Assembly (NCBI GenBank): GCA_001048675.1
Contig: CCKK01000002.1
Coordinates: 1-64,000, forward strand
Source of the DNA: Vibrio diabolicus
GTDB lineage: Bacteria > Pseudomonadota > Gammaproteobacteria > Enterobacterales > Vibrionaceae
Length of the DNA: 64,000 nt
Direction: 5' to 3'
Shown here in pieces: positions 1 to 36,083 of the stretch. Under the pieces are notes generated by a model. It was not told the DNA's origin. It saw nothing but the letters and a program-made list of their open reading frames with translations, and did no database searches. Every line of letters starts with the position of its first letter. Within the stretch, counting starts at the first letter, position 1. A program made the position numbers and the translations under genes.

Positions 1-69
1 AAGCACCGGTCTTGAAAACCGGCATACGTTAATAGCGTATCTAGGGTTCAAATCCCTATCTCTCCGCCA
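1..69 (+). tRNA. tRNA-Ser(UGA), 5' end outside the window
   Basis: The window opens inside a serine tRNA. The anticodon stem CCGGT/ACCGG encloses loop CTTGAAA, giving anticodon TGA at 13-15. A long variable arm follows, then the T arm (GGTTCAAATCC) and the acceptor strand ending CTCTCCGCCA at 69. About 22 nt of the 5' end lie upstream of the window. The first 45 bases are repeated exactly at 3596-3640, inside the broken ldhA gene. Confidence 0.93.
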
Positions 70-74
70 CCTTT

Positions 75-105
75 AAAAAACCGCTGTTCTTACAGCGGTT
101 TTTTT
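75..105 (+). terminator. Rho-independent terminator of tRNA-Ser
   Basis: Stem CCGCTGT/ACAGCGG with a 4-nt loop is flanked by A6 on one side and T7 on the other. It lies six bases after the tRNA CCA end. The rest of the gap to the next gene (106-346) shows no recognised element. Confidence 0.85.
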
Positions 106-346
106 GTATCTGCTGTTTTTTAACAGCTGTTATCGAAAACTTCTAATTGGCTTTTCTCCGGCCCTTTCTCTAAGTTCTTTAGCGTACTCACTTTGGGTTT
201 AGTTTACGCAGTAATATCTGCAATCGAAGACATTTTCATAGGTCATTTAGGCTTTAAGTAGAGCTTTGTTAAGTCTCAACGTGGGATGCTTAAAAGCATT
301 TTGATAGAGTTTCAGTCTAAATACTGCTGATGTACTTGGAGAAAAA

Positions 347-1108
347 ATGAGGCTACTTTACTGGTTAGATGAATGGCAAGCGCTTACTCAACAAGAACAA
401 GAGATGGCTTTACCTATCTCTGGCTACGATTTACTTGATGATGTATTTGTGAAGTATGAACTCGTCGATCTTAACAAGCCATTGTTGTTCACATTTTCTC
501 CTTCCGGTACTGATGCTCAGGTACAAGACTTAACTCCGGATTTTTCTCCTTGGGGCTACGACCTCGGAATACAACAACAAGTAAATATTATTGCCTTTCA
601 ACATTTAGGTAAAAGCAATTGGTTCCGTAGCCGGAATTTGATTTTCTTTCTGGAGCAGTTGTCTGAGTTGCTTAAGCCCTTCAAATGTCGTTTGGGTTAT
701 GGGCAGAGCCGAGGTGGTTTTGCTATTGGCGCATTCGCTGACTTACTGAAGTTGGATCATCTTTTGTTGTTTTATCCTGTTAGCACAAAAAATAAAGCGT
801 TAGTGCCATGGGATGATCGGTCGAGCACTGAGCTTGCTCAACAGTTCGATTGGGAAAGCGGCTACCATGATCGAGATTTGGGCAATGCCAAAGGTTACAT
901 TATTTATGACCCCACCAATCGTATTGATCGTCTTCATGCTGAACGTTACCCAGAGCTAACTCATTTAAAAGTCGTCGGTATGGGGCACGGCACTCAATCC
1001 ACACAATTAGATAAATTAGAATTTTTTAATCTGGTGGCGAAGGAGTTTGTTCGTCATCAAACCATAGATATTGACCAATTTAATAAGCAAATTCACGCTT
1101 TGTTTTAA
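347..1108 (+). CDS. Alpha/beta-hydrolase-like protein, first tandem copy
   Basis: A 253-residue cytoplasmic-looking protein without signal peptide or membrane segment. A nucleophile-elbow-like motif GYGQSRGG puts a candidate Ser at 121. GMGHGT near the C-terminus offers a candidate His at 214, and an Asp around 188-194 could complete a triad. I recognise the fold by these motifs only; substrate and pathway are unknown. The start is ATG after TGGAGAAAAA. The next gene is a clear paralogue that shares long identical blocks, for example LLDDVFVKYE and GKSNWFRSRNLIFFLEQL. It could also be a non-catalytic hydrolase-fold protein. Confidence 0.75.
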   Translation: MRLLYWLDEWQALTQQEQEMALPISGYDLLDDVFVKYELVDLNKPLLFTFSPSGTDAQVQDLTPDFSPWGYDLGIQQQVNIIAFQHLGKSNWFRSRNLIFFLEQLSELLKPFKCRLGYGQSRGGFAIGAFADLLKLDHLLLFYPVSTKNKALVPWDDRSSTELAQQFDWESGYHDRDLGNAKGYIIYDPTNRIDRLHAERYPELTHLKVVGMGHGTQSTQLDKLEFFNLVAKEFVRHQTIDIDQFNKQIHALF

Positions 1109-1211
1109 AAGAGGACTGATATCAGAGTCCCCTGTAACCAGGGGGAGATGATCACACACTAAAAACTAGATTTTTAACACAATTGCTAGGCGCAATTTAG
1201 ATGGAGGATTA

Positions 1212-2243
1212 ATGAAGTTACTGTACTGGTTGGATGAATGGCTGGCTCTTTCTCGTGAAGAACAGCAAACCAGGCTACCGATGTCCGGGGAGGACTTACT
1301 TGATGATGTGTTTGTTAAGTATGAGTTTGTCGACCGAAATAAACCACTGTTGTTCACCTTTTCCCCTGCTGGTACGAATCTACAAGTACAGGACTTACAC
1401 TCAGACTTTGCGCCTTGGGGCTATCGCTTAGCCCAGAAACAAAAAGTAAATATTATTTCTTTTCAGCACCTTGGGAAAAGTAACTGGTTTCGCAGCCGTA
1501 ATTTGATTTTCTTTCTAGAGCAGTTATCGACATTACTTGAGCCTTTTGAATGCCGTTTAGGTTATGGCCTTAGCCGCGGTGGTTTTGCTATTGGCGCTTT
1601 TTCCAATCTATTAAAGTTGGATCAAGTATTGATGTTTCACCCGGTCAGTACAAAAAACAAAGTGCTAGTGCCATGGGATGACAGGCCAAGTACTGAACTT
1701 GCCCAACAATTTGATTGGGAAGGAAAGTACCACGACCTCGACCTTGGAGATGCAAAAGGTTACATCATTTATGATCCAACCAATGAAATCGACCGCCTTC
1801 ACGCCAAACGCTACCCAGAGCTCACTCACTTGAGAGTCTTCGGTATGGGACATGGTACCCACGCGACGTATTTGAATAAATTCGGTTTTTATAAGCAAGT
1901 GGCTGTAGACTTTATACGTTATCAGAAGATAGATATAGCGCAGTTTCGTCATCAGACTAAAACGCTGCGATTAAAAGAAGATTACTATCAGTGCCTTAAC
2001 AAGGCGAATGCGAGTTCACAACATCGTTTGAGCCTACTGAGTACCGCTCATAATGTTCTAATTGAAGAAAAGAAAGAACATGTGAAGGAGCATCAAGCGC
2101 AAATCGATATTCAGCCACTTGTTGATATTGCGATTAAGCATGAGCATGACAATCCGCAAGATGCAGTACAACTTTTGGAAGTGGCTCAGCAGTTAGTTCC
2201 GAATGACCCCGTTGTGGAGCACAAGTTGCAGCAACTGTCGTAG
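1212..2243 (+). CDS. Alpha/beta-hydrolase-like protein, second tandem copy with C-terminal helical extension
   Basis: 343 residues. The first ~250 align end to end with the preceding gene, keeping the GYGLSRGG elbow and GMGHGT. The last ~90 residues are an extra, mostly helical, Lys/Glu/Gln-rich segment ending in a TPR-like stretch (PQDAVQLLEVAQQLVPNDP). The start is ATG after GGAGGATTA. A 103-bp gap separates the copies and contains a small GC hairpin (1129-1144) with no T-run, so both may be transcribed together. The pair looks like an old duplication followed by gain or loss of the extension. Function unknown. Confidence 0.75.
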   Translation: MKLLYWLDEWLALSREEQQTRLPMSGEDLLDDVFVKYEFVDRNKPLLFTFSPAGTNLQVQDLHSDFAPWGYRLAQKQKVNIISFQHLGKSNWFRSRNLIFFLEQLSTLLEPFECRLGYGLSRGGFAIGAFSNLLKLDQVLMFHPVSTKNKVLVPWDDRPSTELAQQFDWEGKYHDLDLGDAKGYIIYDPTNEIDRLHAKRYPELTHLRVFGMGHGTHATYLNKFGFYKQVAVDFIRYQKIDIAQFRHQTKTLRLKEDYYQCLNKANASSQHRLSLLSTAHNVLIEEKKEHVKEHQAQIDIQPLVDIAIKHEHDNPQDAVQLLEVAQQLVPNDPVVEHKLQQLS

Positions 2244-2355
2244 CGTTGAGATGTAATGCAGACGGTATTGGTTGAAAATAGGTCCGTGGCTTTTGTCGCT
2301 GGCCTTTTTAGGAGCTTATGGGTTGATATTTCGATGACATTTAATGAAGCAGTAC

Positions 2356-2386
2356 AAAATAAAAAGCCCAAGCAAATGCTTAGGCT
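2356..2386 (-). terminator. Terminator downstream of yibL
   Basis: On the minus strand AGCCTAAGCA and TGCTTGGGCT form a 10-bp stem with one mismatch, followed by TTTTTATTTT. It lies just past the yibL stop codon. Confidence 0.75.
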
Positions 2387-2406
2387 CAACGAGTATTAAT
2401 ATGAGT

Positions 2407-2763
2407 TTAAAACTCTTTTGGTGCAAAGCCTGTCATGACATCGAGGCGAAGCTCTTTACCAACTTTTGTTAGTGGGTGAACGATTACTAAGCCGCGTACG
2501 CGTTTTTTCAGTTTGCCGATGTCCGCTTGTTCTGCTTTGGTGATTTCACGAGAGAATGGCATATCAAGTAAGCTTTTACGTTCTTTGTTCAGCTCATAGT
2601 TTTGCTTATGCTTTAACTGGTTAAGCTTTTTGGTTAGCTGTTCTACTTCATCCGTGAACTTTGTAATCATTTCGTGATCACCACGAGAACGTGCCGCATC
2701 AAGTTTACGTTGGCATGTATCTAAACGGTTGTGCAGCTTTTGAATATCAGTTTTTATGCTCAT
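2407..2763 (-). CDS. yibL: YibL family ribosome-associated protein
   Basis: 118 residues from ATG at 2763. An in-frame TTG at 2778 would add five residues but gives a worse fit to family length. The N-terminal half is a charged coiled coil. The C-terminal half carries the conserved YibL core (FSREITKAEQADIGKLKKRV, then RGLVIVHPLTKVG and MTGFAPKEF), which parallels Escherichia coli YibL. The family (DUF2810) co-sediments with ribosomes; its precise role is unsettled. Its terminator lies downstream; ldhA lies upstream on the same strand, about 85 bp away. Confidence 0.88.
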   Translation of the reverse strand: MSIKTDIQKLHNRLDTCQRKLDAARSRGDHEMITKFTDEVEQLTKKLNQLKHKQNYELNKERKSLLDMPFSREITKAEQADIGKLKKRVRGLVIVHPLTKVGKELRLDVMTGFAPKEF

Positions 2764-3419
2764 GGTAATTTGGCTCAAATTTTAAATAGTCGAGAAGTAT
2801 AGCATAGCTGAGATCACACGCTCTACTATACTTCTCGATTGTCTGGCTTTAGTTAATCAGTTCATTGCCCGATACGTTACCAGAGAAAAAGGCTTCGACG
2901 TTATCGAGCGTAACTGAGGCAATATTATTAAGTGCTTCGTGAGTCAAGAATGCTTGGTGGCCAGTAAACAGCACGTTATGACAAGCCGATAAGCGACGGA
3001 AAACATCGTCTACGATGACATCGTTAGATTTATCTTGGAAGAACAAGTCTTTTTCATTGTCATACACGTCTAGACCAAGCGCGCCAATCTTACCTTGTTT
3101 CAAGGCTTCTATCGCCGCTAGTGAATCCAGCAACTCGCCTCGACTAGTGTTAATGATCATCACACCATCTTTCATTTGCGCGAAGGCTTTTTCGTTCAAT
3201 AGGTGATAGTTTTCTTCACTCATTGGACAATGGAGAGAGATAATATCCGCATTAGCGTAGATTTCTTCAAGCGAACAGTAACGCGCTCCCATTTCTAGTG
3301 CTAATGGATTTTCGTAAGGGTCATAGCAAAGCAGCTCCATGCCAAGCCCTTTGAAGATACGCATCGTCGCGATACCAATCTTACCTGTACCAATGACACC
3401 AACGGTTTCCCGTAAAAGT

Positions 3420-3457
3420 TAAAGCCAACTAGGCCTTCTAGCGAGAAGTTGGCGTCA
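3420..3457. repeat. 38-bp direct repeat, copy 1
   Basis: This 38-bp stretch of ldhA coding sequence (starting TAAAGCCAACTAGGCC) occurs again without mismatch at 3641-3678. The two copies bracket the foreign tRNA-Ser segment, as a very long target duplication or a template-switch event would. Confidence 0.95.
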
Positions 3458-3640
3458 TAGGACATCGCCAGGCTTTAAATATCGCTTTCAAGTTTTATCT
3501 TAATTGAGATAACTTAAGGCAAAACTAAAAATTAGCATCGATAGTATAAGACTAAGTTTTAGTGACAATTTGTGGAGAGATGGCTGAGTGGTTGAAAGCA
3601 CCGGTCTTGAAAACCGGCATACGTTAATAGCGTATCTAGG
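3458..3640 (+). other. Inserted tRNA-Ser 5' fragment with its upstream DNA
   Basis: 183 bp unrelated to ldhA. Bases 3574-3640 are the first 67 nt of a tRNA-Ser(UGA), beginning GGAGAGATGGCTGAGTGG and stopping just before the T arm. Bases 3596-3640 are identical to 1-45 of this window. The 116 bp before it (3458-3573) look like a tRNA promoter region (TAGTATAAG about 30 bp upstream) and probably copy DNA lying left of the window, which cannot be checked here. Without T arm and acceptor 3' strand it cannot yield a tRNA. Confidence 0.9.
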
Positions 3641-3678
3641 TAAAGCCAACTAGGCCTTCTAGCGAGAAGTTGGCGTCA
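3641..3678. repeat. 38-bp direct repeat, copy 2
   Basis: Identical to 3420-3457. After this copy the sequence continues in the ldhA N-terminal frame, while copy 1 continues toward the C-terminal frame, so one copy is the original site. Confidence 0.95.
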
Positions 3679-4353
3679 CGTGTACGTTGGTAGGCTTTGT
3701 GAAGGCGACGATTTAGGCACATCATCAAACCGACTGTGTGTTCAGCCACCGCTTCTGGTGAGTAAGCAGGAACTCGAACCACTTGTAAGCCAAGTTCTTT
3801 AGCGGCTTGTAGATCAACTTTATCAAAACCCGCGCAGCGCATGGCAATAAGCTTAGTTCCGCCTAGAGAAAGCTGTTTAAGAACGGGAGCTGAAAGGTCA
3901 TCATTGACGAAAGCACACACGACATCGCAACCATGTGCCATTTTGGCGGTTTTTTCGGTTAGCCGGAAGTCGTGATAGTGGAATTCAAAATTTCGGTTAT
4001 TTTTAATTTTATTAAAAGAGGCCTCGTCGTAGGATTTTGCACTAAAAAAAGCAATATTAATCATGGTTCCCTCTCAAAAAGTGCGGACTTTATAAATAAA
4101 TATACTTATAAAGTAATGCAACTTAGGCGGAATGAATAGAGAAATCTTCTCTTTAACTTTTGCCATATCAAACAACGATAACGATCACGCCTTTCAATGA
4201 GTATTATCTTACGATTCTGCACTTGTGCGTTCATCCCTTTAGCTCCTGGGGTAATACAGGTTTTACTCTAGATACTGTTTGCTTTACGGGCGCTAACTGA
4301 CTAGCATAATCGCTCTTTTCTTGTTCACTTTAGTTAGGTTAGGCGTTCCGGCA

Positions 4354-4871: not shown

Positions 4872-5582
4872 CTATGGCATAAAGCGTTGTGGATGATCAC
4901 TGAATATACCGTCTAACTGAGGTAGGTACTTCAGTTTGTTTGGATTGTTCACTGTATAACACATCACTTTGTAACCCGCCTGCTGGAGTTTGTTTATTTG
5001 GCGCGAGCGAACCCAGTTAATGTTTAGGTTGCAGCTATAGGCGTTAACTTCTTCCAAAAGGCGTTTATCTTTTCTCGTTAAGAATTCACTCAATACACCT
5101 AATCGATACTCATTGCAGTATTTATGCAGCGCTCTAATGACATCATGACTAAAACTGGAGAGTAGTACCTTCTCTTGCGGCATGGGACTTTTTGCTAGTA
5201 CGTTGGCGAGAGCTTGTGCCACTTCTTCTGCTGGGTGGCGATCTACCTTAACTTCAATATTCAAGTTAAGCTTGTGCTCAGTAGCTAAAGTGAGCAGCTC
5301 ATCTAATGTCATGATTTTCTCACCTGAAAAATCTGCGCTGAACCAGCTACCAAAATCCAACGCCTTTAACTCTTCCAGCGTCAGTTCATCGACACGCCCT
5401 TGTCCATTACTGCATCGATTTATGGTGTGATCATGGCAAACCACTAAAACATTATCTTTGGTCGGTTGTACATCAACTTCAACCCAATTTAATCCGAGGT
5501 CAATGGCGGCCTGAACGCTCACTTTTGTATTTTCTGGGTATGAGCCAGCAACACCACGATGACCAATTACTAATGTTTCCAT
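4872..5582 (-). CDS. Cytoplasmic glycerophosphodiester phosphodiesterase (UgpQ-like)
   Basis: 236 residues from METLVIGHRG; an in-frame ATG three codons upstream (5591) is an equally plausible start. A GDPD domain fills the protein: HRGVAGSYPENT, VEVDVQPTKD, CHDHTINR and NIEVK carry the acid/base His residues and the metal-binding acidic residues. There is no signal peptide, so it should act inside the cell, cleaving glycerophosphodiesters to glycerol-3-phosphate and an alcohol. It stands alone with no ugp or glp transport genes nearby. Confidence 0.87.
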   Translation of the reverse strand: METLVIGHRGVAGSYPENTKVSVQAAIDLGLNWVEVDVQPTKDNVLVVCHDHTINRCSNGQGRVDELTLEELKALDFGSWFSADFSGEKIMTLDELLTLATEHKLNLNIEVKVDRHPAEEVAQALANVLAKSPMPQEKVLLSSFSHDVIRALHKYCNEYRLGVLSEFLTRKDKRLLEEVNAYSCNLNINWVRSRQINKLQQAGYKVMCYTVNNPNKLKYLPQLDGIFSDHPQRFMP

Positions 5583-35659: not shown

Positions 35660-35956
35660 GACAAAATAAAAACCCCGCCTGGTTTCCCAGACGGGGCTTA
35701 TTCTCTTTCGCAGCAATCCGGCTACTATAGGTGCTCCCTGCATCTATCCTTGATTGTGGCTAAGTCCTTTAACCGAGTTCCTTGTTCATCGCCTTCCTAG
35801 CGGTGTCCATTCTTGCCTATCATCCTGACGGGCGAACTCTATCCTAGAGCTTAACTACATCCTTGCTGATAACTCATCCTAAGCTACCAAATCTTCATCC
35901 TGAAGATACCTAGTCCATTAGGTTTTTTTCCTTGTTCCCGCCAACATCCTGTCGAC
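35660..35956 (-). ncRNA. csrB: CsrB-family regulatory sRNA
   Basis: About 297 nt. It begins GTCGACAGGATG, matching the known start of E. coli CsrB, and its 3' part (AGGGAGC, then AGTAGCCGGATTGCTGCGAA) parallels the CsrB 3' region. About sixteen GGA motifs occur, many as AGGA or AAGGA in hairpin loops such as CTTCAGGATGAAG and CTCTAGGATAGAG. It ends in a strong terminator (CCCCGTCTGG/CCAGGCGGGG then TTTTTATTTTG). Such RNAs sequester CsrA. On the minus strand -35 TTGAGA (35986-35991) and -10 AATACT (35963-35968) are 17 bp apart. Vibrio have several copies (B, C, D); I cannot say which one this is. Confidence 0.93.
35661..35697 (-). terminator. CsrB terminator
   Basis: GCCCCGTCTGG paired with CCAGGCGGGG, then TTTTTATTTTG on the minus strand. 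Confidence 0.9.
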
Positions 35957-36083
35957 ACAATCAGTATTGATGTTTTGCTGATTACTCTCAATTAGCTAGG
36001 TAAAAAAACTTTGGCAGCGAATATTGTTTGAAATGATATAACTGATAATTTTCAATGGCTTATGTTAATTTTTCGATTTTGTC

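Follow-up and report, generated by a model that had tools for sequence, protein, structure and literature searches.

An interrupted putative ldhA gene in a Vibrio diabolicus draft genome: probable misplacement of a 5S rRNA/tRNA-Ser block during assembly

A putative ldhA gene on the minus strand of a Vibrio diabolicus draft genome (2849-4064) is split by 183 bp (3458-3640) that lie between perfect 38-bp copies of ldhA sequence. Judged from the letters and from related genomes, the interruption is very probably an assembly error, in which a block from a 5S rRNA/tRNA-Ser junction stands out of place and the overlap between its two neighboring blocks has been written twice. The draft genome consists of 29 contigs, and the window is the whole stretch that was analyzed, the first 64 kb (64,000 nt) of contig C2. 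An earlier, sequence-only reading had described the 183 bp, the perfect 38-bp repeats and the split gene, and the letters confirm this description. The two repeat copies have a spacing of 221 and a gap of 183; with low-complexity units excluded, they form the sole exact direct repeat of at least 20 bp within 700 bp in the window. No Ns are present at the two joins, which counts against an assembly error. The features are listed in Table 1, where the inserted 183 bp are termed block Z, the sequence before them block A and the sequence from 3641 onward block B.

Table 1. Features of the interrupted ldhA locus, given as positions in the window
Feature	Position	Strand	Remark
Contig C2 start within tRNA-Ser (about nt 23 to end)	1-70	+	Bases 1-45 recur at the end of block Z
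Block A	1-3457		Overlaps of 45 bp (with Z) and 38 bp (with B); in the ES.051 order, after Z and before B
ldhA C-terminal part, ending in repeat copy 1	2849-3457	-	
Short T run, separate frameshift	3406-3408		Compared with ES.051
38-bp repeat copy 1, end of block A	3420-3457	-	
Block Z, probably misplaced: 5S rRNA 3′ end, spacer, tRNA-Ser(UGA) first 67 nt	3458-3640	+	
38-bp repeat copy 2, start of block B	3641-3678	-	
ldhA N-terminal part, start codon at 4064, start of block B	3641-4064	-	

Both halves of the gene are well conserved, with 96% identity to Vibrio sp. ES.051 for the N-terminal half (residues 1-141, at 4064-3642) and likewise for the C-terminal half (residues 146-331, at 3409-2852). 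The protein matches D-2-hydroxyacid dehydrogenases in Pfam above the cut-off. The name ldhA is likely, though short of proven, since D-lactate dehydrogenase models are among the best NCBIfam matches yet score below their cut-offs. There is no close paralog in the same genome, the next match being at 32%. The T run at 3406-3408 is one base shorter than in relatives, ES.051 among them, and causes a separate frameshift in ldhA about 12 bp from the repeat. A run shortened in this way is as expected from poor consensus at the end of a piece and is also compatible with error-prone repair.

Block Z opens with the 3′-terminal 16 nt of a 5S rRNA (3458-3473), continues with a spacer (3474-3573) and closes with the 67 nt that begin tRNA-Ser (3574-3640). 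Its 5S portion was recognized from the first 23 bp of Z, which are also present at 5S ends in three other contigs of the genome (C1, C23 and C28). The sequence-only reading had seen a tRNA upstream region joined to the 5′ 67 nt of tRNA-Ser(UGA); the tRNA part stands, and what was overlooked is the 5S 3′ end at the start of that upstream region. It had also called this tRNA identical to the one at the window start. The identity is real for the 45 shared bases (window bases 1-45 and 3596-3640), but the window start is without the first 22 nt of the tRNA; the window begins inside tRNA-Ser because contig C2 ends there. The spacer has no second match in the genome, and Z is present as a single copy.

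The native setting of Z can be seen in ES.051, where the whole block matches, with 88% identity, the junction of 5S and a tRNA-Ser whose UGA anticodon was confirmed. The order in ES.051 is 23S, 5S, spacer, tRNA-Ser(UGA), the counterpart of window positions 337-3457 and an uninterrupted ldhA. The suggested check, to compare 3458-3573 with what precedes the window, was carried out by way of ES.051: the sequence corresponding to Z is found immediately to the left of that corresponding to window base 1, overlaps it and runs on beyond. Spacer, tRNA-Ser and an intact ldhA are also found together on a Vibrio mytili contig (C61), and in Vibrio rotiferianus tRNA-Ser is near ldhA with a shorter stretch between them. 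Contig C28 of the V. diabolicus genome likewise starts in tRNA-Ser and, from its third base, shares 46 bp with the end of Z. Two V. mytili contigs, C33 and C61, have spacer and tRNA-Ser at their start; the identity to Z is 95% over 125 bases for the former and 89% over 148 bases for the latter. Since C28 starts in tRNA-Ser and V. mytili has two such contig starts, Z is possibly native to the left of C28; by sequence, its native place may be left of C2, left of C28 or both.

The ends of the blocks carry exact suffix-prefix overlaps: 23 bp from the end of C28 to Z, 45 bp from Z to A and 38 bp from A to B. No exact overlap of at least 10 bp is found at the joins that the contig contains, A to Z and Z to B. 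Thus the contig reads A-Z-B, the overlaps chain as C28-Z-A-B, and ES.051 has the order Z-A-B. It is proposed that the assembler, or a later joining step, held three pieces: Z, with the 5S end, the spacer and the tRNA-Ser start; A, running from the rest of tRNA-Ser to the middle of ldhA; and B, from mid-ldhA onward. The true order would most likely be Z-A-B with short end overlaps. Writing the pieces untrimmed as A-Z-B would have placed Z inside ldhA and doubled the A/B overlap so that it mimics a target duplication. The A-Z and Z-B joins would then be without read support, and the program step named here is the presumed source of the error. An untrimmed A-Z-B made from the chain C28-Z-A-B accounts for both repeats, the apparent 38-bp target duplication being the A/B overlap and the 45-bp tRNA identity the Z/A overlap. 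Misassembly had been one of three options in the sequence-only reading. It is strongly supported by the block identities, the exact overlaps, the native order in a relative and recurrence in the assembly, where a block swap of like form is found.

This block swap is at the end of contig C17 (C17:71323-72322), in a gene of the flagellin family. V. rotiferianus and ES.051 have three blocks of this region in the order A-N-M (blocks of C17), and C17 reads A-M-N. Leftover direct repeats correspond to the A/N overlap of 38 bp and the N/M overlap of 24 bp, and the joins used have none. The flagellin gene falls into two frames, of 276 and 157 residues, against a single frame of 392 in V. rotiferianus. 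Two further cases consist of tandem repeats. Near the end of contig C18 (383617-383712), a 48-bp exact tandem repeat is found in a transketolase gene; the unit is single in the four relative loci compared, two each from ES.051 and V. rotiferianus. On C28 (11317-11376), a 29-bp tandem repeat breaks the frame of xerC; the stretch is shorter in three of three relatives, by 29, 29 and 24 bp, and V. rotiferianus, the sole relative with frames listed, has xerC as a single open frame. Both repeats look like untrimmed overlaps, and on sequence grounds the one in xerC is probably another instance of this error. Flagellin and transketolase have paralogs, and these may have confused the assembler; they are also a reservation about the two cases as parallels. 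At the right end of C28, 5S comes about 100 bp after a 16S match, and 23S is missing from between the two; the 16S match covers 1238 bp for a 1533-nt model and overlaps a tRNA match. This end is most likely a collapsed rRNA operon.

A real templated insertion is the least improbable of the alternatives. During replication or break repair, a nascent strand would have jumped about 3.6 kb to the 5S/tRNA-Ser locus, taken a 183-bp copy and rejoined ldhA 38 bp behind the point it had left, with filler DNA between duplicated flanks as the result. Provided that Z is native to the C2 locus, source and target would indeed share a strand and be about 3.6 kb apart; the flanks are perfect copies, and a one-base deletion lies beside the junction; such a small deletion, in the T run, would also fit error-prone repair. 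As read from the sequence, however, no base is shared at either joint, although blunt joints are still possible, and a like architecture is found at other joins of the assembly, the block swap included. The inserted piece is also one that is lacking where contigs start within tRNA-Ser; its absence from the native place would, however, be expected as well if ldhA contains a real copy and the native copy was discarded as a repeat. The parallel case in C17 makes template switching unlikely, and this option of the sequence-only reading found no support. There is only a slight chance that a real and very recent 5S/tRNA-Ser insertion, with a 38-bp flank duplication and no homology at the joints, knocked out the only close ldhA copy.

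Integration commonly takes place at tRNA-Ser genes, and the sequence-only reading had considered a tRNA-targeted integrant remnant; an element inserting at tRNA-Ser would have brought part of that gene into ldhA. Integrases usually rebuild the 3′ end of the tRNA; Z has instead the 5′ part of the tRNA and the DNA upstream of it. At 183 bp it is also too short for element genes, and none are present. A remnant of this kind is thus highly improbable, and the idea found no support.

Transposon insertions consist of a foreign block between direct target repeats, but 38 bp is far above the usual transposase duplication. The ldhA locus resembles such an insertion in having a foreign-looking block between repeats of the target, and differs in that Z has neither terminal repeats nor transposase and is the neighbor of a contig end. 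A small SINE-like or RNA-mediated mobile unit that combines a 5S end with tRNA-Ser and produces long target duplications would account for a discrete 183-bp block flanked by long direct repeats. The single copy of Z in its own genome argues against this, as does the ES.051 match, which is a native 5S-tRNA-Ser junction. Other genomes also gave matches over all 183 bp, so that the block had the look of a mobile element, a reading that was rejected in view of the native junction in ES.051; the matches in other genomes have not all been placed, and they end at the insert edges because the query insert ends there. A truncated tRNA-Ser pattern was matched by 3 of 227 genomes of the genus: the V. diabolicus genome itself, G045 and G171. 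The latter two were rejected as truncations, as their genes run to the 3′ end with one G fewer, located before TTCAAATCC when compared with the V. diabolicus copies. Truncation of tRNA-Ser at this point is thus confined to 1 of the 227 genomes, which speaks against an integrant remnant as well, and it would be most surprising if Z were a mobile unit.

Alignment of ldhA from relatives shows the gene to be contiguous across the site. One protein match spans the site (residues 110-170) in 80 of 80 named ldhA loci, these being the best 80 of 342 from one search and including ES.051, the source of the query. The protein comparison replaced nucleotide matches, which resolved 67 of the 80 loci. A count of intact ldhA genes from an open reading frame script was dropped, as it scored 51 loci only and mixed in other proteins. 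Stops are present in two of the 80 loci, in one (L156) at residue 330 of 331 and in the other, from Vibrio sp. AND4, at residue 167. Since the AND4 stop (near 5499-5537 of the locus) is followed by the end of the match at residue 179, this gene may be broken downstream of the site, by a frameshift or as a pseudogene. As to the loss of D-lactate formation that had been suggested for V. diabolicus, there is no evidence for it.

False "homotype" duplications near contig boundaries are described for vertebrate assemblies by Rhie et al. (2021; PMC8081667). Going by that description, both phenomena double the sequence at a piece boundary by an error of assembly. The vertebrate duplications, as presented there, are about as long as a read and come from other data, whereas the Vibrio repeats are 24-48 bp, in a bacterial draft, and accompany a misplaced piece. 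With the misassembly reading, a false ldhA knockout is removed from a Vibrio genome, and the breaks in other genes of the assembly (xerC, flagellin and transketolase) may likewise be false. A simple flag for such errors is an exact direct repeat, about 25-50 bp long, whose sequence is also the end overlap between blocks in the wrong order.

Repeats were also surveyed at contig ends and in the genome at large. Four of the 29 contigs read as N, and 50 contig ends were readable. An exact repeat of at least 12 bp begins within 13 bases of the end in 11 of the 50. Seven ends (C1e, C7s, C8s, C19s, C23s, C24e and C25s) have a terminal copy of 14-26 bp, with the first copy at base 1 and the second at base 44-50, or 43-49 bp inward. 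In a control of 3000 random window positions, repeats of at least 12 bp were found at five and of at least 14 bp at none, a control that is unmatched in that contig ends naturally fall at true repeats. The terminal copies are a regular end artefact. One of the seven, C8s, looks integron-like, and in three (C1e, C19s and C23s) the middle part is common to the end of another contig. For C19, the main alignment begins only at base 20-22 in four ES.051 and V. rotiferianus loci, and two V. mytili matches stop short of that part. The start of C23 was matched in none of the three relatives compared.

Clusters of exact repeats (at least 28 bp, within 700 bp) number 16 in an 864-kb sample of the V. diabolicus genome and 7 in 400 kb of a relative in two contigs (G018), so that the rate is the same and there is no excess in this assembly. 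Sorted by eye into tRNA arrays, integron-like, repeat proteins, short-period and assembly-like, the kinds of repeat, unlike their rate, appear to differ between the two genomes. Four of the 16 clusters were called assembly-like, those of the window, C17, C18 and C28. Each of the four is no more than 12 kb from a contig end, the zone that supplied 464 of the 864 kb sampled, and none was found in 20 interior stretches; neither the rate of repeats nor this placement favors the misassembly reading.

Two minor features of the window may be added. Adjacent paralogous genes at 347-1108 and 1212-2243 show 75-78% identity over long stretches, and a small RNA of the CsrB/RsmB family is present on the minus strand at 35662-35974.
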